Shown here piece after piece: positions 4,710 through 63,830 of a DNA stretch of 64,000 nt. Below the pieces are notes generated by a model. That model was given only the letters and a program-made list of their open reading frames with translations, was not told where the DNA came from and did no database searches. The position numbers were made by a program, and so were the translations under genes. The stretch's first letter is position 1; each line of letters begins with the position of its first letter. This stretch comes from an uncultured Bradyrhizobium sp. (GTDB taxonomy: Bacteria; Pseudomonadota; Alphaproteobacteria; Rhizobiales; Xanthobacteraceae): contig NZ_CAKZHY010000058.1 in assembly GCF_936928535.1 (NCBI RefSeq), positions 18,977-82,976 on the forward strand. Reading direction: 5' to 3'.

Positions 4710-4878
4710 GTCACCACTCTCCTCGGATTCGGCGTCGTCCCTCACTCCCAACGCCAGGTCCTATCTATTTGTTCTATCTTTCTTTTCTTTTCCGCTTCGC
4801 AATCTTGCGGTAAGCGGCTACAATTTTCTTAGCAAACAGTACATAAGTATCTTGCGCTGCGGTATCCAGCTCCACATC

Positions 4879-4894
4879 TGTAGTGAACACTACA
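4879..4894. promoter_or_regulatory. Candidate TetR operator in the efflux promoter
   Basis: TGTAGTG-AA-CACTACA is a perfect 16-bp inverted repeat that ends 16 bp before the efflux adaptor start at 4911. A TetR dimer there would block transcription or initiation of the pump operon. The rest of the divergent gap (4710-4878) is AT-rich and probably holds both promoters. Confidence 0.55.
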
Positions 4895-4910
4895 TATCTG
4901 GAGCGCGCAA

Positions 4911-49177: not shown

Positions 49178-49951
49178 TTAGCGCTCGGCAAACGCCTTTT
49201 CGACCACAAACTGGGCAGGTTCGCCGTGGTTGCCCTCGACAAAGCCGCGCTCGCCCAGAAGCACGCGGGTATCAGTGACCAGCGCCGGGCTGCCGCAGAT
49301 CATGACGCGGTCATGGGCGGCCTCAATGGCCGGCAGGCCGATGTCGTCGAACAGCTTGCCCGAGGTGATGAGGTCCGTGATGCGGCCGCGGTTGCGGAAG
49401 GGATCGCGGGTCACGGTCGGGTAGTAGATCAGCTGGTTCTGGATGTATTCGCCGAGCATCTCGTCCTTGGGCAGGTGCTCGGTGATCATCTCGCCATAGG
49501 CGAGTTCCTTCACATGGCGGCAGCCGTGCAGCAGCACGACCTTCTCGAACCGCTCGTAGGTCTCGGGGTCCTTGATCACGCTCAGGAACGGCGCAAGTCC
49601 CGTGCCGGTGCCGATCAGGTAGAGGTTGCGCCCGGCTTCCAGATTGTCGATCACGAGCGTGCCGGTGGCCTTGCGGCTGACGATGATTTCGTCGCCCTGC
49701 TTCAGGTGCTGGAGCCGCGAGGTCAGCGGACCATCCGGCACCTTGATCGAGAAGAATTCGAGGGTGTCCTCGTAATTGGCGCTGGCGACGCTGTAGGCCC
49801 GCAGCAGCGGCTTCTCGCCGACCTTGAGCCCGATCATCGTGAATTCGCCGTTACGGAAACGGAAAGTCGGGCTGCGGGTGGTCTTGAAGGAGAACAGCGT
49901 GTCGGTCCAGTGGTGGACGCTCAAAACGCTTTCCTGATTGAAATTGCTCAT
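49178..49951 (-). CDS. fpr: Ferredoxin--NADP reductase (FPR type)
   Basis: A 257-residue flavoprotein of the bacterial FPR subclass that moves electrons between NADPH and ferredoxin or flavodoxin. LLRAYSVASANYED binds FAD, GTGTGLAPFLSVIKDPE binds the pyrophosphate of NADPH, and VMICGSPALVTDT is the nicotinamide site. The C-terminal end VVEKAFAER is typical. The start at 49951 (MSNFNQESVL) is used. It shares with enamidase a promoter region that contains two NicR-type boxes, so it may supply electrons to 6-hydroxynicotinate reductase. A housekeeping role in iron-sulfur and oxidative stress metabolism is the alternative. Confidence 0.88.
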   Translation of the reverse strand: MSNFNQESVLSVHHWTDTLFSFKTTRSPTFRFRNGEFTMIGLKVGEKPLLRAYSVASANYEDTLEFFSIKVPDGPLTSRLQHLKQGDEIIVSRKATGTLVIDNLEAGRNLYLIGTGTGLAPFLSVIKDPETYERFEKVVLLHGCRHVKELAYGEMITEHLPKDEMLGEYIQNQLIYYPTVTRDPFRNRGRITDLITSGKLFDDIGLPAIEAAHDRVMICGSPALVTDTRVLLGERGFVEGNHGEPAQFVVEKAFAER

Positions 49952-50003
49952 CTCACCTTCCCTGTCGCTTCCAGCGCGGTTCCGAGGCGGTCCAGCTATG
50001 CGT

Positions 50004-50033
50004 CGTTTGTACACGATCATTCGTGTACTAATG
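50004..50033. promoter_or_regulatory. Tandem NicR-type boxes between fpr and ena
   Basis: CGTTTGTACACGATCA (50004-50019) and CATTCGTGTACTAATG (50018-50033) overlap by two bases and together contain the perfect 20-bp palindrome GTACACGATCATTCGTGTAC at 50009-50028. The second box fits the consensus CRTTYGTRTACNAAYG of the boxes at 59603 and 59755; the first shares only the CGTTTGT half. The pair lies 53 bp from fpr and 77 bp from ena, so it could control both. Confidence 0.65.
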
Positions 50034-50109
50034 AATAATCCCGCTTGATCCTGCGGTCAAGGCTGCCCAAGATCGCGAGCGTTGCAGTTAGGAATAAGGA
50101 GCCCCCTCC

Positions 50110-51306
50110 ATGGCGCATGACGCACCGCAGGCCACCGGACCCTCGAAGCTGGTGATCCGCAATATCGGCCTGATCCTGTCCGGCGCCCTGGAAAAACCGA
50201 TCCTGGACGGCGACACCATCGTCGCCGAGAACGGCAAGATCAGCGCGATCGGCCGCTTCAAGGACCTGAACACCGAAGGCGCGACCACCATCGTCGACGC
50301 CAACGGCACGACGGTGACCCCCGGCCTGATCGACAGCCATGTCCACCCCGTCGCGGGCGACTGGACGCCGCGACAGAACCAGATCAACTGGATCGACAGT
50401 TCGCTCCATGGCGGCATCACCACCATGATCTCCGCTGGCGAAGTGCACATGCCCGGCCGCCCCCGCGACGTCGTCGGGCTGAAGGCGATGGCGATCTTCG
50501 CCCAGCGCGCGTTCTGGACGCTTCGTCCGGGCGGCGTGAAGGTTCACGCCGGCGCGCCCGTGATCGAATGCGAGATGGTCGAGGAGGACTTCAAGGAGAT
50601 GGCCGCCGCCGGCGTCAAGCTGCTCGGCGAGGTCGGCCTTGGCGGCGTCAAGGACGGCCCGACCGCGCGCAAGATGGTGGGCTGGGCCCGCAAATACGGC
50701 ATCCAGAGCACGATCCACACTGGCGGCCCCTCGATCCCCGGCTCCGGCCTGATCGACAAGGACGTGGTGCTGGAGGCCGACACCGACGTGGTCGGCCATA
50801 TCAACGGCGGCCATACCGCGCTCCCCGACGACCAGATCCGTTGCATCTGCGAGGGCTGCAAGCGCGGGCTCGAGATCGTTCACAACGGCAATGAGCGCTC
50901 GGCGCTCTACACGCTGCGCATCGCGCGCGAGATGGGCGATCTGCACCGCGTCATCCTCGGCACCGACGGGCCTGCCGGCTCCGGCGTGCAGCCGCTCGGC
51001 ATCCTGCGCATGGTTTCGATGCTGTCCTCGATCGGCGAGCTGCCGGCCGAGATCGCGTTCTGCCTCGCCACCGGCAACACCGCGCGGATGCGCCAGCTCG
51101 ATTGCGGCCTGATTGAAGTCGGCCGCGCCGCCGATTTCGTCATCATGGACAAGGCGCAACACTCGCCCGGCAAGAACATCCTGGAGAGCGTCCAGCTCGG
51201 CGACCTCCCCGGCATCGGCATGACCATCATCGACGGCATCGTAAGGACGCAACGCAGCCGCAACACGCCGCCGGCGGGCCGGGTGCCGGAGGTGGTGGCG
51301 AAGTGA
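50110..51306 (+). CDS. ena: Enamidase (nicotinate pathway amidohydrolase)
   Basis: A 398-residue Fe/Zn-type amidohydrolase closely resembling enamidase of Eubacterium barkeri, which hydrolyses 1,4,5,6-tetrahydro-6-oxonicotinate to ammonia and (S)-2-formylglutarate. Shared landmarks include the opening LVIRNIGLILSGALEKPIL, VTPGLIDSHVHP with the HxH metal ligands, LHGGITTMISAGEVHMPGRP, LLGEVGLGG, STIHTGGPSIPG, VVGHINGGHTA, LGTDGPAGSG and the ending RSRNTPPAGR. It lies convergent to the nicR/ABC/hnr operon and opposite fpr. It acts on the product of Hnr, so it completes the reductive branch. A different cyclic amide is possible but less likely here. Confidence 0.88.
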   Translation: MAHDAPQATGPSKLVIRNIGLILSGALEKPILDGDTIVAENGKISAIGRFKDLNTEGATTIVDANGTTVTPGLIDSHVHPVAGDWTPRQNQINWIDSSLHGGITTMISAGEVHMPGRPRDVVGLKAMAIFAQRAFWTLRPGGVKVHAGAPVIECEMVEEDFKEMAAAGVKLLGEVGLGGVKDGPTARKMVGWARKYGIQSTIHTGGPSIPGSGLIDKDVVLEADTDVVGHINGGHTALPDDQIRCICEGCKRGLEIVHNGNERSALYTLRIAREMGDLHRVILGTDGPAGSGVQPLGILRMVSMLSSIGELPAEIAFCLATGNTARMRQLDCGLIEVGRAADFVIMDKAQHSPGKNILESVQLGDLPGIGMTIIDGIVRTQRSRNTPPAGRVPEVVAK

Positions 51307-51316
51307 CGGCTCCTGC

Positions 51317-51413
51317 CGTCATTCCGGGGCGCGCGTAAGCGCGAACCCGGAATCCGGAGATTTTTGGCGCGAGATTCCGGGTTCACGCGCGATGCGCGTG
51401 CCCCGGAATGACA
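51317..51413. repeat. Palindromic intergenic repeat, copy 2
   Basis: A 97-bp inverted repeat in the gap between the convergent enamidase and MarR genes. CGTCATTCCGGGGCGCGCG pairs with GCGTGCCCCGGAATGACA, and each arm has an inner GCGCG hairpin. It is the same family as 6153-6260. Here it may end transcription from both sides. Confidence 0.8.
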
Positions 51414-51421
51414 AGGTCAAT

Positions 51422-51877
51422 TCACCTTAGCTTGTTCAACAGCGCCATCAGCAGCTCGCGCTCCTTCGCGTCGAGCGGGGCCAGCGTTTCGCGCGTGATT
51501 GCAATCGCGTTCGGCGCAAGCTTCTCCGCAAGCTGCTGACCGGCGCGCGTCAGGCTCACCAGCAGGCGCCGGCCGTCTTCGGGATCCTGGCTCGTCTCCG
51601 TCAAGCCGCGCGCCGTGAGGCGGTCGATCACGCCCTTGATGGTCGCGACATCCATCGCCGTCAATCGCCCGAGTTGGTTCTGCGAGCACGGCCCGGTCTC
51701 GGCGAGCTTCGACAGCGCGGCCCACTGCGTCGGCGTCAGGTTGGTGCCGATGTCGCGGGAAAAGATCGAGCTGTGGCGCTGCCAGACCTGGCGCAGGATG
51801 AAGCCGACCTGCTCGTCCAGCACGTAAGGCGGCTTGCCCTGCTTGACGCTCTTCTTCGCCGTGACGCTTCTTGCCAT
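51422..51877 (-). CDS. nicR: MarR family regulator, NicR/BpsR-like
   Basis: A 151-residue winged-helix repressor. The N-terminal PYVLDEQVGFILRQVWQRHS, the NLTPTQWAALSKLAETGPCS stretch and the recognition region GRLTAMDVATIKGVIDRL with the wing DPEDGRRLLVS resemble NicR and BpsR, nicotinate-pathway repressors that respond to 6-hydroxynicotinate. The start at 51877 (MARSVTAKKS) is chosen. It is the last gene of the hnr/UPF0280/DUF1185/ABC operon, 13 bp after livF, so it would be autoregulated. The boxes at 50004, 59603 and 59755 are its likely targets. Confidence 0.82.
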   Translation of the reverse strand: MARSVTAKKSVKQGKPPYVLDEQVGFILRQVWQRHSSIFSRDIGTNLTPTQWAALSKLAETGPCSQNQLGRLTAMDVATIKGVIDRLTARGLTETSQDPEDGRRLLVSLTRAGQQLAEKLAPNAIAITRETLAPLDAKERELLMALLNKLR

Positions 51878-51890
51878 TCCCGCCCGCCCC

Positions 51891-52595
51891 TCACAACGAC
51901 AGATGCGCGTCACGGATATCCGGACGCGCGTCGAGCTCGGCCATGGTGCCGCCGAAACAGATGCGGCCGCGCTCGATGATATAGGCGCGATCGGAGATCA
52001 GCCGCGCAAAGTGCAAATTCTGCTCGGAGACGACGATGCTGACGCCCTCCTTCTTCATGGTCAGGATGGCATCGACCATCTGTTCCACGATCTTCGGCGA
52101 CAGGCCCTCCGAGGGCTCGTCCAGCAGCACCAGCGAAGGATTGCCCATCAGCGTGCGCGCGATCGTCAGCATCTGCTGTTCGCCGCCGCTCATGCGGCCG
52201 CCGGGACGGTTCTTCATCTCGCCAAGATTCGGAAACAGCGTGAACAGCTTTTCGCGATTCCAGTGCGGCGCATTCGCACGCTTCGGCTGACGGCCGACTT
52301 CGAGATTCTCCTCCACCGTCAGATCGGTGAAGATGCGGCGCTCCTCCGGCACATAGCCGAGCCCCTCGCGCACGATTTCATGTGTCGGCTTCGCCGAGAC
52401 ATCCTTGCCCTCGAACATGATGCGGCCGGTGCGCTGCGCGACCAGGCCGACGATCGAGCGGAACGTGGTCGACTTGCCGGCGCCGTTGCGCCCGAGCAGT
52501 GCCACCACTTCGCCCTCACCGACCTCGAAACCGATGTCGAACAGGATATGCGCCGGGCCGTAATGGCTGTTGAGGTCCTGCACCGTGAGCTTCAT
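51891..52595 (-). CDS. livF: ABC transporter ATP-binding protein (LivF type)
   Basis: A 234-residue ATPase of the branched-chain amino acid transporter family. Walker A is LLGRNGAGKSTTF, the signature is MSGGEQQML and Walker B is LVLLDEPSEGLSP. It overlaps livG by 4 bp and precedes nicR. As part of the nicotinate operon it should power uptake of nicotinate or a related pyridine carboxylate. Confidence 0.92.
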   Translation of the reverse strand: MKLTVQDLNSHYGPAHILFDIGFEVGEGEVVALLGRNGAGKSTTFRSIVGLVAQRTGRIMFEGKDVSAKPTHEIVREGLGYVPEERRIFTDLTVEENLEVGRQPKRANAPHWNREKLFTLFPNLGEMKNRPGGRMSGGEQQMLTIARTLMGNPSLVLLDEPSEGLSPKIVEQMVDAILTMKKEGVSIVVSEQNLHFARLISDRAYIIERGRICFGGTMAELDARPDIRDAHLSL

Positions 52596-53383
52596 GCCGA
52601 GGCTCCCTCGCGATGGCCGCCCTCGTAAAGCAGGCCCTCGCCGAGATAGATCGCCTGCACCTGCGGATTGCCGCGCACTTCGGCCGGCGAGCCCTCGGCG
52701 ATCAGCGTGCCGCGATTGAGAACGATGATGCGGTCGGCATGCTCGAACACCACGTCCATGTCGTGCTCGGTGAAGAGCACGCCGATCGACTTCTCCTTGG
52801 CGATCTGCGCCGTCAGCCGCATCAGCTCGACGCGCTCGCGCGGCGCCATTCCGGCGGTCGGCTCGTCCATCAAGAGCAATTTTGGATCATTGGCGAGCGC
52901 GACCGCAAGCTCGAGCCGCTTGAGGTCGCCATAGGCGAGTTCGCCGCAGGGACGATCGGCATAGCCGCCCATGCCGACCAGCTCGAGCAGGCGCCCGGCC
53001 TCATTGCGGTCGACGTTAGGCGCCGAGCCCCAGAGATTGAACAGTTGCCTGCCATGCGAGATCAGCGCGACCTGGACGTTCTCGCGCACCGTCATGGTGG
53101 CGAAGGTCGCGGTGATCTGGAAGGTGCGCCCAACGCCCATGCGCCAGATATCGCGCGGCTTCTTGCCGGTGGTCTCTTCGCCGAGCAGGCGCACATGGCC
53201 ACTGTCAGGCTTGTTCTGGCCATTGAGCATGTCGAAGCAGGTGCTTTTTCCCGCGCCGTTCGGGCCGATCAGCGCCAGGATTTCGCCCGGTCGCAGCGAG
53301 AACGAGACACCGCGCACGGCATGAATGCCGCCGTAGGATTTGGTCAGGCCTTCGACCGCAAGAAGTGGGGGTGCGACACTCAT
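52592..53383 (-). CDS. livG: ABC transporter ATP-binding protein (LivG type)
   Basis: A 263-residue ATPase with Walker A LIGPNGAGKSTCFD, the degenerate signature AYGDLKRLELAVAL and Walker B KLLLMDEPTAGMAP, followed by the LivG-type H-loop FTEHDMDVVFEHADRI. Start and stop both overlap neighbours by 4 bp, so it is made with the fused permease and LivF. Its role is inferred from the operon: import of a pathway substrate. Confidence 0.92.
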   Translation of the reverse strand: MSVAPPLLAVEGLTKSYGGIHAVRGVSFSLRPGEILALIGPNGAGKSTCFDMLNGQNKPDSGHVRLLGEETTGKKPRDIWRMGVGRTFQITATFATMTVRENVQVALISHGRQLFNLWGSAPNVDRNEAGRLLELVGMGGYADRPCGELAYGDLKRLELAVALANDPKLLLMDEPTAGMAPRERVELMRLTAQIAKEKSIGVLFTEHDMDVVFEHADRIIVLNRGTLIAEGSPAEVRGNPQVQAIYLGEGLLYEGGHREGASA

Positions 53384-55269
53384 TCGGCGGACTCGACCGG
53401 CTTGGCGAGTAACGAGGATCCCGGCGGCGATGACTTCCTGCGCCGCTGCGCCAAGATCTCCAGCATGCCAACGATGCCCTTGGGGAAGACGACGACGATC
53501 AGCACGATGAAGCCGCCGAGCACGAGTTTCGAAAGATCGGTCTGGCTGACCAGCCAGATGTTCAGGGCCTTGTAGACGATCGCGCCGATCACCCCGCCCG
53601 ACACCGTCTCGACACCGCCGAGCAGCACCATGACCAGCGCATCGACCGACAGCGAGATGCCGAGATTGTCAGGGAAGACGCTACCTTTCAGATAGGCGAA
53701 CAGCGCGCCGCCGATGCCGGCAGTGGTGCCCGCGATCACGAAGGCCGTCCACTGGATGCGCTTGGCATTGATGCCGACAGCTTCGCTGCGCAGCAGCGAG
53801 TCGCGCGTGGCGCGGAGCGCGTAGCCGAATGGCGAGAACACCATGACCCGCAGCGCGATCGTCACGAGCGCCGCGACACCGAGCGCAAGCCAATAGAAAT
53901 GCGACGGGCTTGCCGCCCATTTTTCCGGCCAGACGCCCAGAATGCCGTTGTCGCCGCCTGTCACGCTGACCCACTGGAACGCGATCGACCAGACGATCTG
54001 CGCGAAGGCGAGCGTCAGCATCGCGAAATACACGCCGGAGAGCTGCACCGCGAAGAAGCCGAACACAGCGGCTCCCATGCAGCCGAGCAAGGGCCCGAGC
54101 AAGAGGCACACGATCATCGGCAGCCCCGCCATCTTGGCGAGGAAGGCGACACCGTAGGCGCCGAGGCCGAAATAGGCGGCGTGGCCGAACGACGCGAGGC
54201 CGCCGACCGACATCAGGAAGTGCAAGGACACGGCGAAGATCACGAAGATCGCGATCTCCGAGCCAACGGTGAGCGCGTAATTACCCGCAAACAGCGGCAG
54301 CATCGCCGCGATGATCAACGCGGCAAGTGACGCGAGCCGCTCGTTCAAGGTCAGCGGCCGCCAGGGATTGACTGACAGCCCCGGCGTCTTGCGCGCGGCC
54401 GCCTCCGGCTTGCCGAACAGGCCCCAGGGCCGCACGATCAGCACCACCGCCATCACCAGGAAGACCAGGATGATGGAAATCTTCGGAAAGATCAGGATGC
54501 CGAACGCGTTCAGCTCGGAGACCAGCACCGCCGCAACGAAGGCGCCGACGATGCTGCCGAGGCCACCGATCACGACGACGACGAAGACCTCGACGATGAT
54601 GCGCAGATCCATGGCGTGATGCACCGCATCGCGCGGGATCTGGAGCGCGCCGCCAAGGGCCGCGAGGAATACACCGACCGCGAACACCGATGTGAACAGC
54701 CATTTCTGGTTCACGCCGAGGGCTGCGACCATGTCACGGTCCTGCGTCGCGGCGCGCACCAGCACGCCCCAGCGCGTGCGCTGGAACAGCAGCCAGAGTA
54801 CACCGAGAACGACGGGCCCCAGCGCAATCAGGAACAGATCATAGCTCGGGATGTTTTGGCCGAAGAAATCGACCGCGCCCTTGAAGCCCGGTGCGCGGCG
54901 GCCGACGAGATCGTCGGGGCCCCAGATCAGCACGACGAGGTCCTCGACCATCAGCGTGAGACCGAATGTGCCGAGCAGCTGGAACAGTTCGGGCGCGTGA
55001 TAGATGCGCCGCAGCAGCACGATCTCGACGAGGACGCCGATCAGCGCGACCGCAAGCGCCGCCGCCACCACCCCGCCCCAGAAGCCGAACGCGCCGGAGA
55101 AGCGCTCCGTCAGGGTGAAGGCGATATAGGCGCCGATCATGTAGAAGGCGCCATGCGCGAAATTCACGATCCGCGTCACGCCAAAGATGATCGACAGGCC
55201 CGAGGCCACCAGAAACAGCGACGCTGCGCTGGCAAGACCGGTCAGAAACTGTACGACGTAAAAGGCCAT
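53380..55269 (-). CDS. Fused LivH-LivM-type ABC permease
   Basis: A 629-residue protein that joins both membrane subunits of a branched-chain amino acid-type transporter in one chain. Residues 1-290 match LivH (IFGVTRIVNFAHGAFYMIGAY, GFLAALGGALQIPRDAVHHA-like) and residues 310-620 match LivM (SVGGLASFGHAAYFGLGAYG, FGYALRATRDSLLRSEAVGI). In most systems these are separate genes. A 10-bp hairpin separates it from the upstream binding-protein gene. It would form the channel for the nicotinate-operon importer. Confidence 0.9.
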   Translation of the reverse strand: MAFYVVQFLTGLASAASLFLVASGLSIIFGVTRIVNFAHGAFYMIGAYIAFTLTERFSGAFGFWGGVVAAALAVALIGVLVEIVLLRRIYHAPELFQLLGTFGLTLMVEDLVVLIWGPDDLVGRRAPGFKGAVDFFGQNIPSYDLFLIALGPVVLGVLWLLFQRTRWGVLVRAATQDRDMVAALGVNQKWLFTSVFAVGVFLAALGGALQIPRDAVHHAMDLRIIVEVFVVVVIGGLGSIVGAFVAAVLVSELNAFGILIFPKISIILVFLVMAVVLIVRPWGLFGKPEAAARKTPGLSVNPWRPLTLNERLASLAALIIAAMLPLFAGNYALTVGSEIAIFVIFAVSLHFLMSVGGLASFGHAAYFGLGAYGVAFLAKMAGLPMIVCLLLGPLLGCMGAAVFGFFAVQLSGVYFAMLTLAFAQIVWSIAFQWVSVTGGDNGILGVWPEKWAASPSHFYWLALGVAALVTIALRVMVFSPFGYALRATRDSLLRSEAVGINAKRIQWTAFVIAGTTAGIGGALFAYLKGSVFPDNLGISLSVDALVMVLLGGVETVSGGVIGAIVYKALNIWLVSQTDLSKLVLGGFIVLIVVVFPKGIVGMLEILAQRRRKSSPPGSSLLAKPVESAE

Positions 55270-55298
55270 CGGCGGTCCGGGTTAGGTTTGAATTTCAC

Positions 55299-55322
55299 CT
55301 CTCCCCGCAAGAGCGGGGAGAG
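55299..55322 (-). other. Intercistronic hairpin between binding protein and permease genes
   Basis: CTCTCCCCGC (55299-55308) pairs perfectly with GCGGGGAGAG (55313-55322) around a 4-nt loop, 18 nt past the binding-protein stop. Such hairpins commonly protect the binding-protein mRNA and lower permease expression. No T-run is present. Confidence 0.6.
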
Positions 55323-55340
55323 GGAGAGATAGACCAGATG

Positions 55341-56543
55341 TCAATCCTTCGGCCGCAGCTTCTCGACTTCGGCATCGCTGGGCAGATAGTCGGAACCCTT
55401 CTTGTAGGAGGTGTCGACCATCACGCCCTTGCCGTCCTTCTGCGCGGTCTTGCCGACGAAGGCACCGAGGGTCGACTGGTGATCGATCTTGCGGAAGGTG
55501 ATCTCGCCGAACGGCGACGGCATCGAGATGCCTTCGGCTGCTGCGATCATCTTGTCGGTGTCGGTCGAGCCAGCCTTGGCGATGATCGCCGCCGCCGCCT
55601 TGATGGTCTGGTAGCCGACGATCGAGCCGAGGCGTGGATAGTCGTTGTACTTGGCCTGATAGGCCTTCAGGAACGCGTCATGCTCTGGCGTCTTGATCGA
55701 GTACCAGGGATAGCCGGTGACGATCCAGCCCTCGGGCGTCTCCTCCTTGAGCGGATCGAGATATTCGGGCTCGCCGGTCAGAAAGGACACGACCTCGCGG
55801 CCCTTGAACAGGCCGCGGGTGTTGCCCTCACGCACGAGCTTGACGAGATCAGGACCGAAGGTGACGTTGAGGATGGCTTCCGGATTGGCCTGCGCCACCG
55901 CCTGCACCACCGGACCCGCATCGATCTTGCCCTGCGGCGGCCACTGCTCGTCGACCCACTGGATGTCGGGGCGCTTCTCCGACATCAACTTCTTGAACAC
56001 CGCGACCGCCGACTGGCCGTATTCGTAGTTCGGCGCGATCGTCGCCCAGCGTTTTGCCGGCAGCTTGCTCGCGGCTTCCACCAGCATCGCGGCCTGCATG
56101 TAGTTGGAGGGACGCAGGCGGAAAGTGTACTTGTTGCCCTTCGCCCAGGTCACGGCGTCCGTCAGCGGCTCGGCCGCAAGGAAGAACACCTTTTTCTGGT
56201 TGGCGAAATCGCTGACGGCAAGGCCGATATTCGACAGGAACGTGCCCGTCAGCATCGCAACGCCTTCGCTGGAGACGAGCTCATTGGCCGCGGTCTGCGC
56301 ATCGGCCGGCTTGCCGCCATCATCCTTGGAGATGACGACGAGCTTCTTGCCGTTGATGCCGCCGGCCGCATTGATCTCTTCGACCGCGAGCTGCCAGCCC
56401 TTGCGGTAGGGTTCGGTGAAGGACGGCAACAGCGAGTAGCTGTTGATCTCGCCGATCTTGATGTCATCGGCCAGGGCCGAATGGCCCATGCCGGCCGCCA
56501 GAAGCGCAAAGGCCGCGCCGACGAAACTGTTTCTTGCTCGCAT
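55341..56543 (-). CDS. ABC transporter substrate-binding protein (LivK type)
   Basis: A 400-residue periplasmic receptor of the family-5/6 type used by branched-chain amino acid and aromatic-acid importers. The signal peptide ends near GMGHSALAD (residue 25). The mature protein starts IKIGEINSYSLLPSFTEPYR and includes AVEEINAAGGINGKKLVVI and KKVFFLAAEPLTDAVTW, typical of aromatic or amide binders. It is placed between DUF1185 and the permease in the nicotinate operon, so nicotinate or 6-hydroxynicotinate is the likely ligand; leucine-type ligands are less likely. Confidence 0.9.
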   Translation of the reverse strand: MRARNSFVGAAFALLAAGMGHSALADDIKIGEINSYSLLPSFTEPYRKGWQLAVEEINAAGGINGKKLVVISKDDGGKPADAQTAANELVSSEGVAMLTGTFLSNIGLAVSDFANQKKVFFLAAEPLTDAVTWAKGNKYTFRLRPSNYMQAAMLVEAASKLPAKRWATIAPNYEYGQSAVAVFKKLMSEKRPDIQWVDEQWPPQGKIDAGPVVQAVAQANPEAILNVTFGPDLVKLVREGNTRGLFKGREVVSFLTGEPEYLDPLKEETPEGWIVTGYPWYSIKTPEHDAFLKAYQAKYNDYPRLGSIVGYQTIKAAAAIIAKAGSTDTDKMIAAAEGISMPSPFGEITFRKIDHQSTLGAFVGKTAQKDGKGVMVDTSYKKGSDYLPSDAEVEKLRPKD

Positions 56544-56621
56544 CCCAACCTCCAGTTTTGAATTTTATCTCTCGACCACGATCCTGCCGGAGAAGCTGTG
56601 CCCGCCCCTCCGAACCATCCC

Positions 56622-57206
56622 TTATTTCAAACCGTCTTCGCCCTTGATCTCCGCGACCGTCAGCCCGCCGACACGCGGCAGCGGACGGCCGCTGTCGGTG
56701 ACGGCGACCGCGACCATGATCTCGTTCGCGCGCGGCGCGTCGTTGATCTGCACCTCCATGCCGTCAAAGTGACTGCGCACGAAGGCCGCATCCTTGTGCC
56801 CGAGCGGTATGTCGAGCGTCGTGCCGGGGCCGCTGCGCTTCTTCGACGACGGGATCAGCGCCGCGCCCTTGCTCAGCACCTTACGCACCGGCGCGCCCAT
56901 CTTGGGGTGCAGGATCGCGGCGGCATGTTCCAACTCGCCATTCTCGCCGACCGCGGCGGCCTTGCCGTAGCTGTGCGCCTTGGCGCCGTCGATGCCGAGC
57001 GCCGCCACGGCGCGCTTCGCCAGCAAATCACCAAGTTCTTCTCCGATCGCGATCAGCGGGGAGAGATCCTCGACGTATTTTCCCGCAAAGGGGTTTTCGA
57101 TCACGGCGATCGCGGCGGCGCGGCGGGTCGGGGGCGAGACCTGACGGCCCATCTCCATCTGGGTCTCTTCGACCACGGTGACGATCTTGCGGATGATCGC
57201 GCTCAT
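56622..57206 (-). CDS. Amino acid synthesis (DUF1185) family protein
   Basis: A 194-residue cytoplasmic protein of the DUF1185/AA_synth family, recognised by the opening MSAIIRKIVTVVEETQMEMG, ENPFAGKYVEDLSPLIA, the central YGKAAAVGENGELEHAAAIL and HPKMGAPVRKVL. The family name is historical and its reaction is not established. It lies 15 bp after the UPF0280 gene in the hnr operon. A role in further processing of a ring-opening product, or in assembly, is possible, but nothing in the sequence decides it. Confidence 0.8.
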   Translation of the reverse strand: MSAIIRKIVTVVEETQMEMGRQVSPPTRRAAAIAVIENPFAGKYVEDLSPLIAIGEELGDLLAKRAVAALGIDGAKAHSYGKAAAVGENGELEHAAAILHPKMGAPVRKVLSKGAALIPSSKKRSGPGTTLDIPLGHKDAAFVRSHFDGMEVQINDAPRANEIMVAVAVTDSGRPLPRVGGLTVAEIKGEDGLK

Positions 57207-57221
57207 GCTTCACGTCCCTGT

Positions 57222-58121
57222 TCAGGCATCGACCGCGTTCTCCAGCACAAGCGGGCGCGGTCGTTGCTCTTCTATATCTCTGGTTCCGATGACAAGCATA
57301 TCACCACAAAGCCTGAGCACGGCAGCCTCGATCAACCCACGATCGAATAATTGACGTGCACATTCCGCGCCAGATTCGAGCGCAGTGGCGATCTCGTCTT
57401 GCGACATCTCACCGACCTCGCGGGTGACAAGACGCGCGCCGAGATCGCTGTCAGGCTGAAGTTCGTTGGCGGGCTGCCTGATAATGGCGGGATGCCCCGG
57501 CAGGTCGACGGCATTGGCGATCACTGTGGCGGCCGCATCGGCCTGCGAGGCCGTTGCCGCCAGCACCGTGACCGCATCGGCGATGCCAAGCGAAAAGCTG
57601 CGGCCGTGGCGCCCGCTGGTCGCGATGCCGCGAACCGGATCGTCAGCATCGACCCTCATGCTGCGCATGACACCGTCGCGATCAGGCCGATCCATCAGGC
57701 CGATGGAAAAATGCGCGCCCGGCCCGAGGTGCAGCGCTATATCGCCGCCATTGTTGACATAGGCCTGATCGAGCGTCGCGACATCAAGCATGGCGCCGAG
57801 AATTTCCTCGGCCACGCTACCGGCCACCGCAGCCATCGGCGTAATGAAGCGATCCCAGGCGTAGGGCGCTACGGCAGCATACATGCGGCGGGCCACCGTG
57901 CCTGTCAGTGAAGACGCCGCGGGCAGCGCCGCCCGCCGCAATTCCGGCAGCTCGGCGCAGAGCGCGTCCAGCAAACCGGTGAACCGCCGCGCCGCAGCTT
58001 CATAGGCCATGCGCACATCGTGCGCGGGCCCCCTCGCCTCGACGATCAGATCAATCGGTCCATCCTGCAAATGCAGCCGCCGGCCATCAGACAGCAATGC
58101 GATTTGCGGGAGACGTGTCAT
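57222..58121 (-). CDS. UPF0280 family protein (ApbE-like fold)
   Basis: A 299-residue protein of the UPF0280 family, whose known structures belong to the ApbE-like superfamily. It shows AAVAGSVAEEILGAM, then AYVNNGGDIALHL, which parallels the NxGGD flavin-site motif of ApbE flavin transferases, and later SGRHGRSFSLGIADAVTVLA, like the ApbE metal-site region. Its ATG overlaps the hnr stop by 4 bp (58118-58121), so the two are translated together. Because Hnr of E. barkeri carries covalent flavin, a flavin-attachment function is a reasonable hypothesis. No UPF0280 activity is known to me. Confidence 0.82.
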   Translation of the reverse strand: MTRLPQIALLSDGRRLHLQDGPIDLIVEARGPAHDVRMAYEAAARRFTGLLDALCAELPELRRAALPAASSLTGTVARRMYAAVAPYAWDRFITPMAAVAGSVAEEILGAMLDVATLDQAYVNNGGDIALHLGPGAHFSIGLMDRPDRDGVMRSMRVDADDPVRGIATSGRHGRSFSLGIADAVTVLAATASQADAAATVIANAVDLPGHPAIIRQPANELQPDSDLGARLVTREVGEMSQDEIATALESGAECARQLFDRGLIEAAVLRLCGDMLVIGTRDIEEQRPRPLVLENAVDA

Positions 58122-59575
58122 GCCCGCCGTCCTGGAATCGGATTCTGCCAAGGCAGTTGGCGGACGTCATCGCCGCCCCTCACCTCGGAGAGCGGCTTGA
58201 CGTAATCCATGTGCCCACCGAGCGCGGCGTAATCGGACAGTTTCATCGTGAATTCGATCGGCGCGACCAGCGCAGGCGTCGGAACATAGCCGAACGCTCC
58301 CGCCGGCATCTGCGTCACATCGACCATGTAGGTGATGCCCCCGCCCGGCCAGACATAAACCGCCGCACCGCCGCTGGTGACGCGCGTCAGCGCGTCCTTC
58401 ACCGAGCGCGTCAGGCGCACCGGATTGTCGGTGACGCCAGCGCGCAGCGAACCGCCGGCGCCGGCCATGAACAGCACCGTGCACAGCGCCGGCTCGCAAT
58501 TTTCCTGGATGCGCTCGACCGAGAACTGCAGATCGGCGGGCATCTCGGTCTCGACCGGCTTCAAGGCCTGGTCGAGCACATAGTAGGACGAATGCTCGCC
58601 GGTCGTGGACACCATCAGCATCGAGAGGCCGGGCTTGGCCTCCTTGGGATCGAACGGGCCGAGGATCGCGAGTGGATCGGAGATATTGGTTCCACCCCAG
58701 CCAGTGCCGGGATCGGCGACCTGGAAATAGCGGCCAGGCGTCGAGCGCCGGCCCTTCATCTTGATGCCGGTGTCGGCGATGTCGAGCAGCTTGCCGGCCT
58801 GATGCTCGCTGAGCACGCCGGTGATGTGGTCGTCGACCACGACGACCTCGTCCACCTTGCCGTGCCATTGCTTGGCGAACATGCCGATCGTCGCCGAGCC
58901 GCAACCGACCCGCATGCGCTCTTCTTTGACGCCGTTGACGATCGGCGGCTGGCCGGCCTGCACCACCACGCTAGCGCCGCCGTCGATGGTCAGTTCCACC
59001 GCCTTGCAATTGGCGAGGTCCATCAGCGTGTCGCAGGTGACCCGGCCTTCCTTCTTGGAGCCGCCGGTGAGATGATGCACGCCGCCGAGCGACAGCATCT
59101 GCGAGCCGTACTCGCTGGTCGTAACGTGGCCGACCGCCTCGCCCTGCGCGCGCACGGTCGCGGTCTCGGGCCCGAGATAGCGGTCGGTGTCGATCTTCAC
59201 CTTGACGCCGCAGTAAGAGAAAATGCCCTCGGTGACGACGGTCACCATGTCGACGCCGTCGACCTCGGACGAGACGATAAAAGGCGCGGGCTTGTAATCG
59301 GGATAGGTCGTCCCTGCACCGATCGCGGTCACGAAGGTCGAGGGTTCGTGAACGATGTTGCCGTCCCAATCTTCGGTGCGGCTGAAGGGCACCAGCTTGC
59401 CGCCCTGCGACACCGTGCGCTCGAGAATGACGTGCGGATCGACACGGACGAGCTTGCCGTCATGGTTGGCGTAGCGATCGCAGGCGCCCGCCGCGCCCGG
59501 CTTGATGTAGCACATCACCGGACAGGCATCGCAGCGGATCTTGTCGGTGGCCGCGCTCGTTGTTTCCATCACCAT
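58118..59575 (-). CDS. hnr: 6-hydroxynicotinate reductase (iron-sulfur flavoprotein)
   Basis: A 485-residue enzyme matching Hnr of Eubacterium barkeri, which reduces 6-hydroxynicotinate to 1,4,5,6-tetrahydro-6-oxonicotinate with ferredoxin-type electrons; that enzyme has covalent flavin and [2Fe-2S] plus [4Fe-4S] clusters. Near residue 14 the spacing C-x2-C-x3-C-x9-C (CDACPVMCYIKPGAAGAC) fits a cluster. Further cysteines are in SYCGVKV, VTCDTLMDLANC, RVGCGSATIG and NCEPALC. MVMETTSA at 59575 is taken as the start, though METTSA at 59569 is possible. The palindrome at 59603-59618 lies just upstream. It heads the eight-gene operon that ends with nicR. Confidence 0.87.
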   Translation of the reverse strand: MVMETTSAATDKIRCDACPVMCYIKPGAAGACDRYANHDGKLVRVDPHVILERTVSQGGKLVPFSRTEDWDGNIVHEPSTFVTAIGAGTTYPDYKPAPFIVSSEVDGVDMVTVVTEGIFSYCGVKVKIDTDRYLGPETATVRAQGEAVGHVTTSEYGSQMLSLGGVHHLTGGSKKEGRVTCDTLMDLANCKAVELTIDGGASVVVQAGQPPIVNGVKEERMRVGCGSATIGMFAKQWHGKVDEVVVVDDHITGVLSEHQAGKLLDIADTGIKMKGRRSTPGRYFQVADPGTGWGGTNISDPLAILGPFDPKEAKPGLSMLMVSTTGEHSSYYVLDQALKPVETEMPADLQFSVERIQENCEPALCTVLFMAGAGGSLRAGVTDNPVRLTRSVKDALTRVTSGGAAVYVWPGGGITYMVDVTQMPAGAFGYVPTPALVAPIEFTMKLSDYAALGGHMDYVKPLSEVRGGDDVRQLPWQNPIPGRRA

Positions 59576-59602
59576 GTCAAAGCCAGCAGAGCGTGCGGTT
59601 AT

Positions 59603-59618
59603 CATTCGTATACGAACG
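59603..59618. promoter_or_regulatory. NicR-type box upstream of hnr
   Basis: CATTCGTATACGAACG has arms that match at all but one pair, within the 20-bp near-palindrome 59601-59620. It ends about 28 bp from the hnr start. It fits the consensus CRTTYGTRTACNAAYG shared with 50018-50033 and 59755-59770. Confidence 0.65.
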
Positions 59619-59754
59619 ATGTTGCGCGCGGTCCCGAACACTGTCAAGCGGCGCCGCGCGCGAAAAGGCGCGCCTGCCGAATAAAACCTCATTTGCCTGC
59701 CGGCCTTGTTCACAAAGCAGGCAGCCACGCTGCACTGCGGCATGGCCGCTTGCA

Positions 59755-59770
59755 CGTTTGTGTACAAACG
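59755..59770. promoter_or_regulatory. NicR-type box upstream of nicA
   Basis: CGTTTGT-GT-ACAAACG is a perfect inverted repeat 65 bp before the nicA ATG. It lies in the 260-bp divergent gap with hnr. With the box at 59603 it gives one operator per promoter. The rest of the gap 59619-59754 shows no gene. Confidence 0.65.
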
Positions 59771-59835
59771 GTATCGTCGCGGGCGTAGGAATTTCGCGAC
59801 CACGCGACCGCAGGGCCAAGGGTTTGGGAACGAGG

Positions 59836-60318
59836 ATGACGCAACCACCGATCCGCCTCACCGTGAACGGCAGGATCCACGACGTCACGGCGGAGCGCCA
59901 GACGCTGCTGCTCTACGTGCTGCGCAATGATCTCGGACTCAACGGCCCGAAATATGGTTGTGGCCTCGGTGAATGCGGCACCTGTACTGTCCTGATCGAC
60001 GGCATGGCTGCGCGCTCCTGCGTGATTCCGATCAGCGGCTGCGCCGGGCGCGACATCATGACGCTCGAAGGCCTCGGCACACGCGACAAGCCCGACATCG
60101 TGCAGCAGGCCTTCATCGACGAGCAGGCCGCGCAATGCGGCTACTGCCTCAACGGCATGATCATGACCACCAAGGCACTGCTCGCGATCAACCCGCGGCC
60201 GACCGAGCAGGAAGCGCTCGCCGCGCTGCGCTACAATCTCTGCCGCTGCGGCACGCACGTAGAGATCCTGCGCGCCGTGATGCGCGCGGCTGGCCAGCTC
60301 GCCGAGGCCGGTGATTGA
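59836..60318 (+). CDS. nicA: Nicotinate hydroxylase small subunit, 2 x [2Fe-2S] (NicA type)
   Basis: A 160-residue iron-sulfur subunit of the xanthine dehydrogenase family. The plant-type cluster is bound by GCGLGECGTC and the later cysteine of RSCVIP; the second cluster is bound by QCGYCLNGM and LCRCGTH. NicA of Pseudomonas putida has the same size and pairs with NicB to convert nicotinate to 6-hydroxynicotinate. GAGG at the ATG and the overlapping TGATG with the next gene support this start and coupling. Confidence 0.9.
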   Translation: MTQPPIRLTVNGRIHDVTAERQTLLLYVLRNDLGLNGPKYGCGLGECGTCTVLIDGMAARSCVIPISGCAGRDIMTLEGLGTRDKPDIVQQAFIDEQAAQCGYCLNGMIMTTKALLAINPRPTEQEALAALRYNLCRCGTHVEILRAVMRAAGQLAEAGD

Positions 60319-63300
60319 TGGCCTCTCCGAATTCGAATGCAGCTGAGCGAGGTTCGCTCGTCGTCGTCAGCACCGTGGACGAGGTCACCTCCGAAACGTT
60401 CGTGCGGGTCACAACGGACGGGTCGGTCACGGCCTATAACGGCCATGTCGATCTCGGCACCGGCATCCGCACCGCGCTCGGCCAGATCGTCGCCGAGGAG
60501 CTCGACGTCTCCTTCGCCCGCGTCGTCGTGGTGCTCGGCGATACCTCTGTCGTGCCGAACCAGGGCCCGACAATCGCGAGCGAAACCATCCAGATCACTG
60601 CCGTGCCCCTGCGCAAGGCCGCAGCCCAGGCACGGCAGTTTTTGATCACGCGCGCAGCGGAACGGCTTGAGCTGCGGGCATCGGATCTCAAGATCGAGGA
60701 TGGTCTTGTTCGAGGCCATAATCGCAGCATCAGCTATGGCGAGCTGATCGGCGGCGAGTCCATTCGCCTCGAGCTCGAGGATAACGTCGCCGTCAAAGCC
60801 GTCGGCGATTACGCGATCGTCGGCCAGTCCATGCCGCGCGTCGATCTTCCCGCCAAGGCAACGGGCGAGCTGACCTTCGTCCACGATATCCGCCTCCCCG
60901 GCATGCTGCACGGCCGCGTGGTGCGCCCGCCCTATTCCGGCGTCGATGCTGGGCCATTCGTCGGCACCAGCCTGATCGCAGTCGACGAATCCTCCGTGCG
61001 AGATGTGCCCGGCCTGATCGCCGTCGTGCGCATCGGCGATTTCGTCGGCGTGGTCGCCGAGCGCGAGGAGAATGCGGTTCGCGCCGCCGGGCAGCTCAAG
61101 GTGAGCTGGAGGCCGACGCCAAAACTCACTGATCTCGCCGATGTCGAGACCGCGCTGCGCGCCCATCCGTCGAGCCCCCGCACGCTGATCGACAAGGGCG
61201 ATGTCGATGCGGCGATCGCAGGCGCGACCAAGCCGATGCAGCGGACTTATGTTTGGCCCTACCAGATGCATGCGTCGATCGGCCCATCCTGCGCGGTCGC
61301 CGATTATAGGGATGGCAACATCCGCGTCTGGTCGGGCACGCAGAACCCACACGTGCTGCGTACTGATCTCGCATTGCTGGTCGAGCGCCCCGAGAGCGAG
61401 GTCGAGGTTATCCGTCTCGAAGCCGCCGGCTGCTACGGCCGAAACTGCGCCGATGACGTCAGCGCCGACGCGCTGCTGCTGTCGCGCGCGGTCGGCCGGC
61501 CCGTGCGCGTGCAGCTGACGCGCGAGCAGGAGCACGCCTGGGAGCCGAAGGGCACGGCACAGCTGATCGACGTCAACGGCGGCCTCGACGCCACAGGCGG
61601 CATCGCCGGTTACGATCTCGCCACCCGCTATCCCTCGAACGCCGCGCCGACGCTGGCGCTGCTGCTCACTGGGCGTATCTCGCCGGAGCCCGCAGTGCTC
61701 CAGATGGGCGACCGCACCGCGATCCCACCTTACGACTACGACCACATGCGCGTCGTCGCCCATGACATGGCGCCGATCGTGCGCGCGTCCTGGTTCCGTG
61801 GCGTCTCGGCGCTGCCGAACACCTTTGCGCATGAATCCTATATCGACGAAGCCGCGACCGAAGCCGGCGTCGATCCGATCGAATATCGCCTGCGCTACCT
61901 GAAAGACCAGCGCGCCGTCGATCTCGTGAATGCGGTCGCCGAACGCGCCGGCTGGACACCACGAGCGGTCCGTGAAGAGAAGGACAACGAGATAGTGCAT
62001 GGGCGCGGCTTTGCCTATGCGCTCTATGTCCACAGCAAGTTTCCCGGCTACGGCGCTGCGTGGTCGGCCTGGGTTGCCGACGTTGCTGTCAACAAGACCA
62101 CTGGCGATGTCAGCGTCACCCGCGTCGTCGCGGGTCAGGATTCCGGATTGATGATCAATCCTGAGGGCGTGCGCCACCAGATCCACGGCAACGTCATCCA
62201 GTCGACCAGTCGCGCCCTAATGGAAGAAGTCTCGTTCGAGCGCGGCGCGGTGGCGGCACGGGAATGGGGCGCCTATCCGATCATCCCGTTCCCTGAGGTG
62301 CCCAAGATCGACGTGCTGATGCTGCCGCGGCAGGACCAGCCGCCGCTCGGCGTCGGCGAGTCCGCGTCGGTTCCCAGCGCGGCGGCGATCGCGAATGCGA
62401 TCTTCGATGCCACCGGCGTGCGCTTCCGCGAGCCGCCGTTCACGCCGGAGCGCATTCTGAAGGGATTGCATGGCGAGACATCGCCGGCTCCGCAAGCCCT
62501 GCCCGCACCGGCGGCTTCAAAATCGTCCCGCATCTGGGAAAATCCCTTCACCAAACGCGCCGGTATCGTCGCGGCGGTCGCCGCCGTCTGCACTGCTGCG
62601 ATCGGCATCGGCGCGGCGCTTCTGCCCGGCCGCGCCATCGCGCCGATCACGCGTCCTGACGCATCGATCTATTCCGCAGCAGCGATCGCGCGCGGCGAGC
62701 AGCTCGCAGCGCTCGGCAATTGCGCGGAGTGCCACACGAATCTCGGCGGTGTGCTCAACGCCGGCGGCCGCGCGCTTCCGACGCCGTTCGGCACGATCTA
62801 TTCGACCAACATCACGCCTGACGTCGAGACCGGCATCGGCGCCTGGTCCTATCCTGCCTTTGAGCGTGCGATGCGCGAGGGGCTGCATCGCGACGGGCGG
62901 CAGCTCTACCCGGCCTTCCCCTACACGCACTTTTCGAAAACCAGCGACGCCGACATGCAGGCGCTCTACGCCTATCTGATGGCGCAGCCTGCGGTGCGCG
63001 CGACAGCCCCCGCCAATGCGCTCGCCTTCCCGTTCAACATCCGCCCGCTGCTCGCCGGCTGGAACGCGTTGTTCCACCAGGCCAAGGAGTTCAAGCCCGA
63101 CCCTACGAAGTCCGAACAATGGAATCGCGGCGCCTATCTGGTCGAGAGCCTCGGCCATTGCAGCGCCTGCCATTCGCCGCGCAACGCGCTCGGCGCCGAG
63201 CAGCGGCAGGCCTATCTCGCCGGCGGCTTTGCCGAAGGATGGGAGGCGCCGCCGCTGACCTCGCTCTCGCACGCGCCGATCGTCTGGAGCGAGGACGAGC

Positions 63301-63830
63301 TGTTCGCCTACTTACGCACCGGCCATTCCCGCTACCACGGCGTCGCCGCGGGTCCGATGGCACCGATCGTGAGGGATCTCAGGGCCCTGCCCGATCAGGA
63401 CATCCGCGCGATGGCGGTCTATCTCGGCTCGTTCAACGAGGGCACGGCGGACGCGCCCGCCCTCGCGGCAAAGCTCGAGAGCGCAACGCAGGTCCGCGTC
63501 GCCTCGTCCGCCGGCGCGCGGCTCTACCAGGGCGCCTGTGCGGTCTGCCACGAGGTCGGCGGCCTGCCGCTGTTCGGCAGCCGGCCCTCGCTCGCGCTCA
63601 ACAGCAATCTGCACAGCGCGACGTCGCACAATCTGGTGCAGGTGATCCTGCACGGCATCGCCGAGCCCGTGTCGAGCGACCTCGGCTACATGCCCGCGTT
63701 TGGGAACAGCACGAGCGACGCGCAGGTCGAGGAACTCGTCAACTTCCTGCGCGGCCAGTTCGCGCCGGACAAGCCGGCCTGGACCGGCGTGCGCGAGACG
63801 ATCGCGCGCGTGCGATCGTCGGCGCATTAG
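60318..63830 (+). CDS. nicB: Nicotinate hydroxylase large subunit with three-haem cytochrome c tail (NicB type)
   Basis: A 1170-residue fusion. Residues 1-720 are the molybdopterin-binding part of the xanthine dehydrogenase family (segments HVDLGTGIRTALGQIVAEEL, FRGVSALPNTFAHESYIDEA, RVVAGQDSGLMINPEGVRHQ and GVGESASVPSAAAIANAIF). A membrane helix at about 748-770 follows, then three haem motifs: CAECH at 802, CSACH at 948 and CAVCH at 1074. This is the layout of NicB, which passes electrons from nicotinate hydroxylation to the respiratory chain through cytochrome c. Its ATG shares a base with the nicA stop. Other N-heterocycle or aldehyde substrates are possible, but the locus supports nicotinate. 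Confidence 0.9.
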   Translation: MASPNSNAAERGSLVVVSTVDEVTSETFVRVTTDGSVTAYNGHVDLGTGIRTALGQIVAEELDVSFARVVVVLGDTSVVPNQGPTIASETIQITAVPLRKAAAQARQFLITRAAERLELRASDLKIEDGLVRGHNRSISYGELIGGESIRLELEDNVAVKAVGDYAIVGQSMPRVDLPAKATGELTFVHDIRLPGMLHGRVVRPPYSGVDAGPFVGTSLIAVDESSVRDVPGLIAVVRIGDFVGVVAEREENAVRAAGQLKVSWRPTPKLTDLADVETALRAHPSSPRTLIDKGDVDAAIAGATKPMQRTYVWPYQMHASIGPSCAVADYRDGNIRVWSGTQNPHVLRTDLALLVERPESEVEVIRLEAAGCYGRNCADDVSADALLLSRAVGRPVRVQLTREQEHAWEPKGTAQLIDVNGGLDATGGIAGYDLATRYPSNAAPTLALLLTGRISPEPAVLQMGDRTAIPPYDYDHMRVVAHDMAPIVRASWFRGVSALPNTFAHESYIDEAATEAGVDPIEYRLRYLKDQRAVDLVNAVAERAGWTPRAVREEKDNEIVHGRGFAYALYVHSKFPGYGAAWSAWVADVAVNKTTGDVSVTRVVAGQDSGLMINPEGVRHQIHGNVIQSTSRALMEEVSFERGAVAAREWGAYPIIPFPEVPKIDVLMLPRQDQPPLGVGESASVPSAAAIANAIFDATGVRFREPPFTPERILKGLHGETSPAPQALPAPAASKSSRIWENPFTKRAGIVAAVAAVCTAAIGIGAALLPGRAIAPITRPDASIYSAAAIARGEQLAALGNCAECHTNLGGVLNAGGRALPTPFGTIYSTNITPDVETGIGAWSYPAFERAMREGLHRDGRQLYPAFPYTHFSKTSDADMQALYAYLMAQPAVRATAPANALAFPFNIRPLLAGWNALFHQAKEFKPDPTKSEQWNRGAYLVESLGHCSACHSPRNALGAEQRQAYLAGGFAEGWEAPPLTSLSHAPIVWSEDELFAYLRTGHSRYHGVAAGPMAPIVRDLRALPDQDIRAMAVYLGSFNEGTADAPALAAKLESATQVRVASSAGARLYQGACAVCHEVGGLPLFGSRPSLALNSNLHSATSHNLVQVILHGIAEPVSSDLGYMPAFGNSTSDAQVEELVNFLRGQFAPDKPAWTGVRETIARVRSSAH

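Follow-up and report, generated by a model that had tools for sequence, protein, structure and literature searches.

Nicotinate fermentation in Eubacterium barkeri involves a 6-hydroxynicotinate reductase with covalent flavin and iron-sulfur (Fe-S) clusters, and its later steps run to methyleneglutarate and on. Alhapel et al. are said to have reported in 2006 that the flavin of this reductase is covalently bound and that nine Proteobacteria carry the genes of the first three enzymes. In its text on the gene cluster, a 2012 study places a nicotinate route via tetrahydro-oxonicotinate (THON) in Azorhizobium caulinodans ORS571, Bradyrhizobium japonicum USDA110, Rhodopseudomonas palustris HaA2 and strain SG-6C, the evidence given there being that SG-6C grows on nicotinate, with 6-hydroxynicotinate appearing transiently, together with homology (PMC3511419). 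Here, we analyzed a 64 kb stretch of an uncultured Bradyrhizobium (the window; contig 58, 18977-82976, within a 7.5 Mb genome), which probably encodes an aerobic reductive nicotinate cluster acting in the order NicAB, 6-hydroxynicotinate reductase (Hnr) and enamidase. A preliminary description had suggested that such a cluster may be the genetic basis of the Azorhizobium pathway; the reading is probably right but not new, because PMC3511419 already describes the cluster type. New beyond print are an operator with a predicted regulon that includes a ferredoxin-NADP reductase gene (fnr), a strict partnership between Hnr and a protein of the UPF0280 family, and modular variants among relatives.

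Gene content and predicted pathway

Leftward from the hnr promoter the genes run hnr, UPF0280, AA_synth, livK, a fused livHM, livG, livF and marR. Then follow ena, on the opposite strand to the marR-hnr block, and fnr, divergent to ena. Rightward of hnr lie nicA and nicB, and the contig ends at the right edge of the window (82976), 170 bp past nicB. The NicAB-type genes, hnr and enamidase homologues, ATP-binding cassette (ABC) importer and MarR gene that had been described as clustered are all present in the sequence, but ena and hnr are 6.8 kb apart and not 8 kb. Absent from that description were fnr, although inside its interval, as well as UPF0280 and AA_synth. As in the Azorhizobium-type cluster, hnr, a nicotinate hydroxylase and an enamidase occur together; the window also has Liv-type genes, UPF0280 and AA_synth beside hnr. 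UPF0280 and AA_synth appear to be the two proteins meant in the cluster text of PMC3511419.

The earlier call of a cytochrome c-fused NicAB entry enzyme is borne out by domain make-up, with a [2Fe-2S] subunit and a molybdenum (Mo)-cofactor subunit fused to cytochrome c. That NicAB acts on nicotinate is predicted from gene context. The substrate call must rest on context because the best solved NicB relatives, the 8GY3 subunits among them (PDB sequence search), are cytochrome or Mo subunits of aldehyde, sugar and alcohol dehydrogenases, which speaks against a nicotinate substrate. Support comes from 15 of 38 relatives (L031-L068) that carry a nicotinate phosphoribosyltransferase gene behind nicB; in L047, for instance, it adjoins nicB at 4349-5653. 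In another Bradyrhizobium group, also 15 of the 38 loci, a catechol 2,3-dioxygenase gene stands behind nicB (4781-5749 in L031).

The start of hnr was set at the Met before its Cys motif, giving 485 amino acids rather than the longer open reading frame. Hnr had no match in Pfam or NCBIfam and no significant match in a PDB sequence search; the source records call several close relatives 6-hydroxynicotinate reductase and others "hypothetical protein". Bradyrhizobium proteins match Hnr at 97% identity, and a tree of 78 Hnr rows places it among those of Bradyrhizobium; its CxxCxxxCx9C motif is invariant in 52 of 52 Hnr sequences. Counts of named loci are based on the best 80 of 593 from one scan of genome contigs, and among these 80 none carries a Bacillota title. 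In one genome (L028/L029), the Hnr match is divided between two frames that overlap, the gene being frameshifted or misassembled. The enamidase aligns with the solved enamidase 2VUN over residues 12-395 of 398 (373.9 bits) and is thus homologous over its full length. The alignment matches a His-x-His, two later His and one Asp, which we take to be the metal ligands.

Taken together, the 2VUN-level enamidase, the Hnr family, the NicAB domains, the BpsR-related MarR protein and the phosphoribosyltransferase neighbor support the order NicAB, Hnr, enamidase that had been proposed. Two genome sets, some genomes being in both, were surveyed, a phylum sample of 299 and a class sample of 385. In the phylum sample, ten of the 20 genomes with Hnr gave an enamidase match (E <= 1e-20), as did two genomes lacking Hnr. 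The ten Hnr genomes without an enamidase match count against the pathway reading, so Hnr alone is no proof of it; they also suggest that the family is broader than its name, 6-hydroxynicotinate reductase, implies.

Hnr and its UPF0280 partner

In the phylum sample, Hnr and UPF0280 were found in the identical 20 genomes, and in the class sample UPF0280 was present in 68 of the 68 genomes with Hnr (41 of 276 genera), counts that shared ancestry and linkage inflate, cases of separated genes being few. Only three weak UPF0280 matches (E 1.9e-6, 4.8e-4 and 8.1e-4) turned up in the 317 class-sample genomes without Hnr. For 67 of the 68 genomes, the UPF0280 match follows that of Hnr on the same strand at a distance of 0-223 bases; in G516 the Hnr match is partial and the two matches are on different contigs. 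Likewise, UPF0280 stands directly behind hnr in 74 of the 77 named loci with enough right flank. Of the three exceptions, L082 has it 8 kb from hnr, and in L073 and L094 it lies beyond the 10 kb flanks, elsewhere in the genome. Seven Acidobacteriota loci (L081, L083, L085, L087, L092, L098 and L106) also have UPF0280 behind hnr and are the sole support from outside the phylum. Because UPF0280 occurs in all Hnr genomes while only half of those in the phylum sample have an enamidase match, and AA_synth occurs also in 21 genomes without Hnr, UPF0280 goes with Hnr as such and not with the nicotinate pathway. AA_synth was itself considered as a strict Hnr partner, being in 19 of the 20 Hnr genomes, and was rejected on account of those 21.

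A structure model of UPF0280 predicts the fold of the flavin transferase ApbE, and the two proteins share GGD and AD-x3-T stretches. The H257G mutant of Vibrio cholerae ApbE was among the structure-search matches. The HxxDP loop of ApbE holds the catalytic His. Opposite this loop of the genome's own ApbE, UPF0280 shows a gap, though in a weak alignment (hhalign probability 10%), and for lack of the His loop we do not file it as an ApbE member. That UPF0280 acts on the flavin of Hnr is a serious possibility that we hold with reserve. More tentative is the fuller proposal, in which UPF0280 would be the flavin-attaching or -loading enzyme of Hnr, from a branch of the ApbE fold without the His loop, and Hnr-UPF0280 a portable ring-reduction module used with at least two entry hydroxylases and at least two ring-opening enzymes.

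Several points count against this proposal besides the gap. No His is invariant across 51 UPF0280 sequences; the genome's one canonical ApbE could act on Hnr instead; in the class sample, G392 lacks an Hnr match but has one to UPF0280 at 31% identity; and the family has members in genomes outside our Hnr counts, such as 2O34 of Desulfovibrio vulgaris. Thr229 of Hnr, in a GCGSATIG stretch that presumably resembles ApbE acceptor motifs, was tried as the flavin acceptor and dropped, as two of the 52 sequences have Ala there; no acceptor is proposed, a further point on the same side. A natural Hnr-UPF0280 fusion (P0068, 764 amino acids) was likewise set aside, its junction resembling a frameshift in a single metagenome member. 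The literature searched, whose coverage leaves out most subscription journals, held neither UPF0280 by name nor ApbE and hydroxynicotinate together, and the NCBIfam label is still hypothetical. A family so labeled thereby gains a candidate client in Hnr. If the proposal is true, a flavoenzyme matured by UPF0280 can reduce a heteroaromatic ring in aerobic cells.

Probable operator, likely electron supply and modular variants

The palindrome CGTTYGTRTACRAACG was spotted by eye in the nicA/hnr region of the window and then searched. With up to three mismatches it occurs at only four places in the 64 kb (Table 1), all within the divergent nicA/hnr and ena/fnr promoters. Counted by strand, the window holds seven matches vs 1.81 in shuffles, and none of 100 shuffles reached seven. 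Of the 80 named loci, 45 have divergent nicA/hnr, and 42 of these carry a site within two mismatches (40 of them two or more sites), while all 29 divergent ena/fnr regions have one within three mismatches (22 with two or more); these counts are not independent because most loci are from Bradyrhizobium and the motif was drawn from the window. Against an operator stand the nicA/hnr regions of L078, L079 and L091, without a site within two mismatches. Across the loci, sites within two mismatches number 111 in 20.4 kb of divergent regions vs 16 in 1457 kb elsewhere. Sites within one mismatch also precede marR, hnr, ena or hyuA in loci of Bosea, Kaistia, Microvirga and Agrobacterium. When the DNA of five loci was aligned, both nicA/hnr palindromes stood out as conserved blocks amid less conserved surroundings.

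The MarR protein is related to 6PCP and 2NNN. 6PCP would be BpsR, going by PMC6837509 and matching residue numbering. The structural text of that paper gives Tyr15, His23, Arg26 and His32 as BpsR contacts to 6-hydroxynicotinate (PMC6837509). The window protein has Tyr30, Phe38, Arg41 and His47, hence three of the four; the Phe in place of His23 weighs against the same ligand. We infer that MarR binds the palindromes and that 6-hydroxynicotinate releases it. Through the shared palindrome, fnr is predicted to join the nic regulon. Its product is the likely electron source for Hnr, because fnr shares the operator region of ena and adjoins hnr in a Comamonadaceae plasmid and in Sagittula (L140, L141). 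Against this, fnr is common and not universal, lying within the flanks of only 29 of 50 fully flanked named loci and 37 of 73 in a wider set. Elsewhere in the genome are two fnr paralogs at 61-63% identity and one 25% relative.

The hydroxylase and the ring-opening enzyme vary between relatives, judging from the 73 of 97 loci in which the sequence extends more than 7.5 kb to the left of hnr and 6.5 kb to its right. Enamidase is encoded in 44 of these, and 11 have a hydantoinase/oxoprolinase (HyuA) match instead, none having both; 18 have neither, in some of which enamidase may lie beyond the fetched flank. NicAB with cytochrome c is the entry enzyme in 41 loci, a separate flavin adenine dinucleotide (FAD) subunit with a fused Fe-S/Mo subunit in 25, and neither in seven. 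One HyuA, one HyuB and one Mo subunit of variant loci were checked against Pfam. On the Hnr tree the HyuAB loci cluster (five changes vs 9.6 in shuffles; none of the 500 shuffles gave so few), and they are absent from a branch of 53 rows (99/95); NicAB rows are scattered over several separate parts. In a Sagittula stellata plasmid (L141, 17541-18611), a vanillate-demethylase-like Rieske oxygenase gene lies inside an hnr-UPF0280-AA_synth cluster with HyuAB; the substrate there may be an N-methylated pyridine such as trigonelline or homarine, which is a guess.

All 44 enamidase loci contain a window-like AA_synth (>60% identity), as do 13 of the 29 loci without enamidase in the fetched stretch. 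AA_synth directly adjoins an enamidase relative at four sampled places away from hnr (L166, L176, L182, L183). Because it accompanies enamidase in this way, we regard it as a candidate for a step after ring opening, admittedly a guess. DUF1185 (AA_synth) was tied to amino-acid metabolism via neighboring Liv-type transporters in the text on this family in PMC2954203. The family name may mislead, however, because in hnr clusters the neighboring Liv-type transporter more likely carries nicotinate, and AA_synth may there belong to heterocycle breakdown. Two AA_synth paralogs stand side by side behind UPF0280 in 28 of 71 sufficiently flanked loci (L070, L074, L077-L079 and others), and in none of the 33 Bradyrhizobium-titled ones.

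Table 1. Genes and operator-like sites of the cluster, in window coordinates
Feature	Position	Strand	Evidence
Cytochrome P450 gene adjoining fnr	47358-48665	- (same strand as fnr)	also there in six Bradyrhizobium loci
fnr, ferredoxin-NADP(+) reductase (Fpr type), likely Hnr electron source	49178..49951	-	PRK10926 162.8 bits, below cut-off 390
Two overlapping operator-like palindromes between fnr and ena	50004-50019, 50018-50033	.	2 and 3 mismatches to CGTTYGTRTACRAACG
ena, enamidase homolog, predicted THON to 2-formylglutarate + NH3	50110..51306	+	2VUN E 9.7e-111
marR, MarR-family regulator, likely cluster repressor	51422..51913	-	Pfam MarR; 2NNN E 2.7e-46; 6PCP E 8.8e-27
Liv-type ABC importer block	51891-56543	-	livF, livG, livHM, livK
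livF-type ABC ATPase	51891..52595	-	open reading frame; 60% identity to annotated ABC transporter ATP-binding protein of L140; overlaps long marR form
livG-type ABC ATPase	52592..53383	-	open reading frame; 61% identity to annotated ABC transporter ATP-binding protein of L140
Fused LivH-LivM permease	53380..55269	-	two BPD_transp_2 stretches
livK-type periplasmic binding protein, predicted nicotinate importer subunit	55341..56543	-	PF13458 E 2.8e-69
AA_synth (DUF1185), possible post-enamidase step	56622..57206	-	PF06684 E 4.9e-75; PDB 2QTP E 3e-87
UPF0280, predicted ApbE flavin-transferase fold, possible Hnr maturation factor	57222..58121	-	NCBIfam NF003322 423.6 bits, cut-off 290
hnr, 6-hydroxynicotinate reductase homolog, 485 amino acids	58118..59575	-	CxxCxxxCx9C motif; named relatives
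Operator-like palindrome before hnr	59603..59618	.	1 mismatch; conserved block in five-locus DNA alignment
Operator-like palindrome before nicA	59755..59770	.	0 mismatches; conserved block in five-locus DNA alignment
nicA, [2Fe-2S] subunit of predicted nicotinate hydroxylase, 160 amino acids	59836..60318	+	Fer2, Fer2_2
nicB, Mo-cofactor subunit fused to cytochrome c part, 1171 amino acids	60315..63830	+	MoCoBD_1, MoCoBD_2, Cytochrom_C in 3 stretches; three CxxCH motifs

Alternative explanations and known systems

UPF0280 could instead act on a pathway metabolite or an electron carrier, for example as a flavin-binding redox partner of ApbE fold, and leave the flavin of Hnr alone. The apparent want of an ApbE His loop, seen in a weak alignment, and the failure to name an acceptor residue in Hnr both fit this idea. 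However, UPF0280 goes with Hnr whatever the entry or ring-opening enzyme and is retained in Hnr genomes without an enamidase match, following Hnr and not the pathway; we consider the idea plausible but tentative. The ferredoxin-NADP reductase, for its part, might serve the neighboring P450 and not Hnr. P450 systems require a reductase, and the P450 gene comes next after fnr on the same strand, as it does in L031, L032, L034, L035, L037 and L043. Many other loci end before that position and speak neither way, but where both fnr neighbors are visible (L071, L078, L079, L094, L140, L141) they are cluster or other genes with no P450 match. Moreover, fnr lies directly beside hnr in L094, L140 and L141 and has its palindrome-bearing promoter in common with ena in all 29 loci with that divergent arrangement, making service to the P450 improbable.

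It is also conceivable that NicAB feeds an oxygenase (maleamate) route encoded elsewhere in the genome, with hnr and ena serving another heterocycle. In Azospirillum oryzae a 66% identical NicB is accompanied by genes, annotated or recognizable, for NicX, NicC, NicD, an Asp/Glu racemase and an isochorismatase-type amidohydrolase, and contig 95 of the window's own genome (L163, 634-10629) has NicX (35-36%), NicC-like (30%) and NicD-like (25%) matches within 10 kb, a point against the reductive route. Yet none of the five A. oryzae maleamate genes has a match in the window, the common palindrome links nicAB to hnr and ena, and every one of the 26 fully flanked Bradyrhizobium-titled loci has NicB next to hnr. 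We find this division of labor very hard to credit. An oxygenase route for nicotinate in this genome is itself unlikely, given the low identities on contig 95 and the lack of a NicE or NicF match on that 20 kb, although no whole-genome search was made for NicC, NicD, NicE or NicF. The contig 95 genes possibly belong to another aromatic or pyridine pathway.

In the reductive route that we favor, the Liv-type importer would take up nicotinate, a substrate suggested by its neighbors, and NicAB would hydroxylate it, passing electrons to the cytochrome chain. Hnr would reduce 6-hydroxynicotinate with electrons likely from the ferredoxin-NADP reductase under common control, its flavin perhaps installed or held by UPF0280 during maturation. 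Enamidase would then open the reduced ring, converting THON to 2-formylglutarate and NH3, and AA_synth is a candidate for a step between 2-formylglutarate and glutarate. MarR would repress the cluster until released by 6-hydroxynicotinate. A published, little-explored cluster thus yields testable claims on an operator, an electron source, and a maturation factor for a reductase that would carry covalent flavin.

Among known systems, the flavin transferases ApbE, Ftp and FmnB resemble UPF0280 in fold and in the two shared stretches; UPF0280 differs in having no HxxDP loop aligned to that of the genome's own ApbE. The maleamate-type nic cluster on an A. oryzae plasmid (L138) has a MarR regulator in common with the window and NicA and NicB 71% and 66% identical, but oxygenase-route genes where the window has hnr, UPF0280, AA_synth and ena. 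E. barkeri has 6-hydroxynicotinate reductase and enamidase in common with the window; it is anaerobic, however, and its nicotinate dehydrogenase, in the passage on that enzyme in PMC10331938, has four subunits including an FAD subunit, unlike the cytochrome c-fused NicAB found here. Closest is the cluster of PMC3511419, whose text on the cluster names no UPF0280, AA_synth, ferredoxin-NADP reductase or operator, but which is alike in its hnr homolog and in a pathway via THON.

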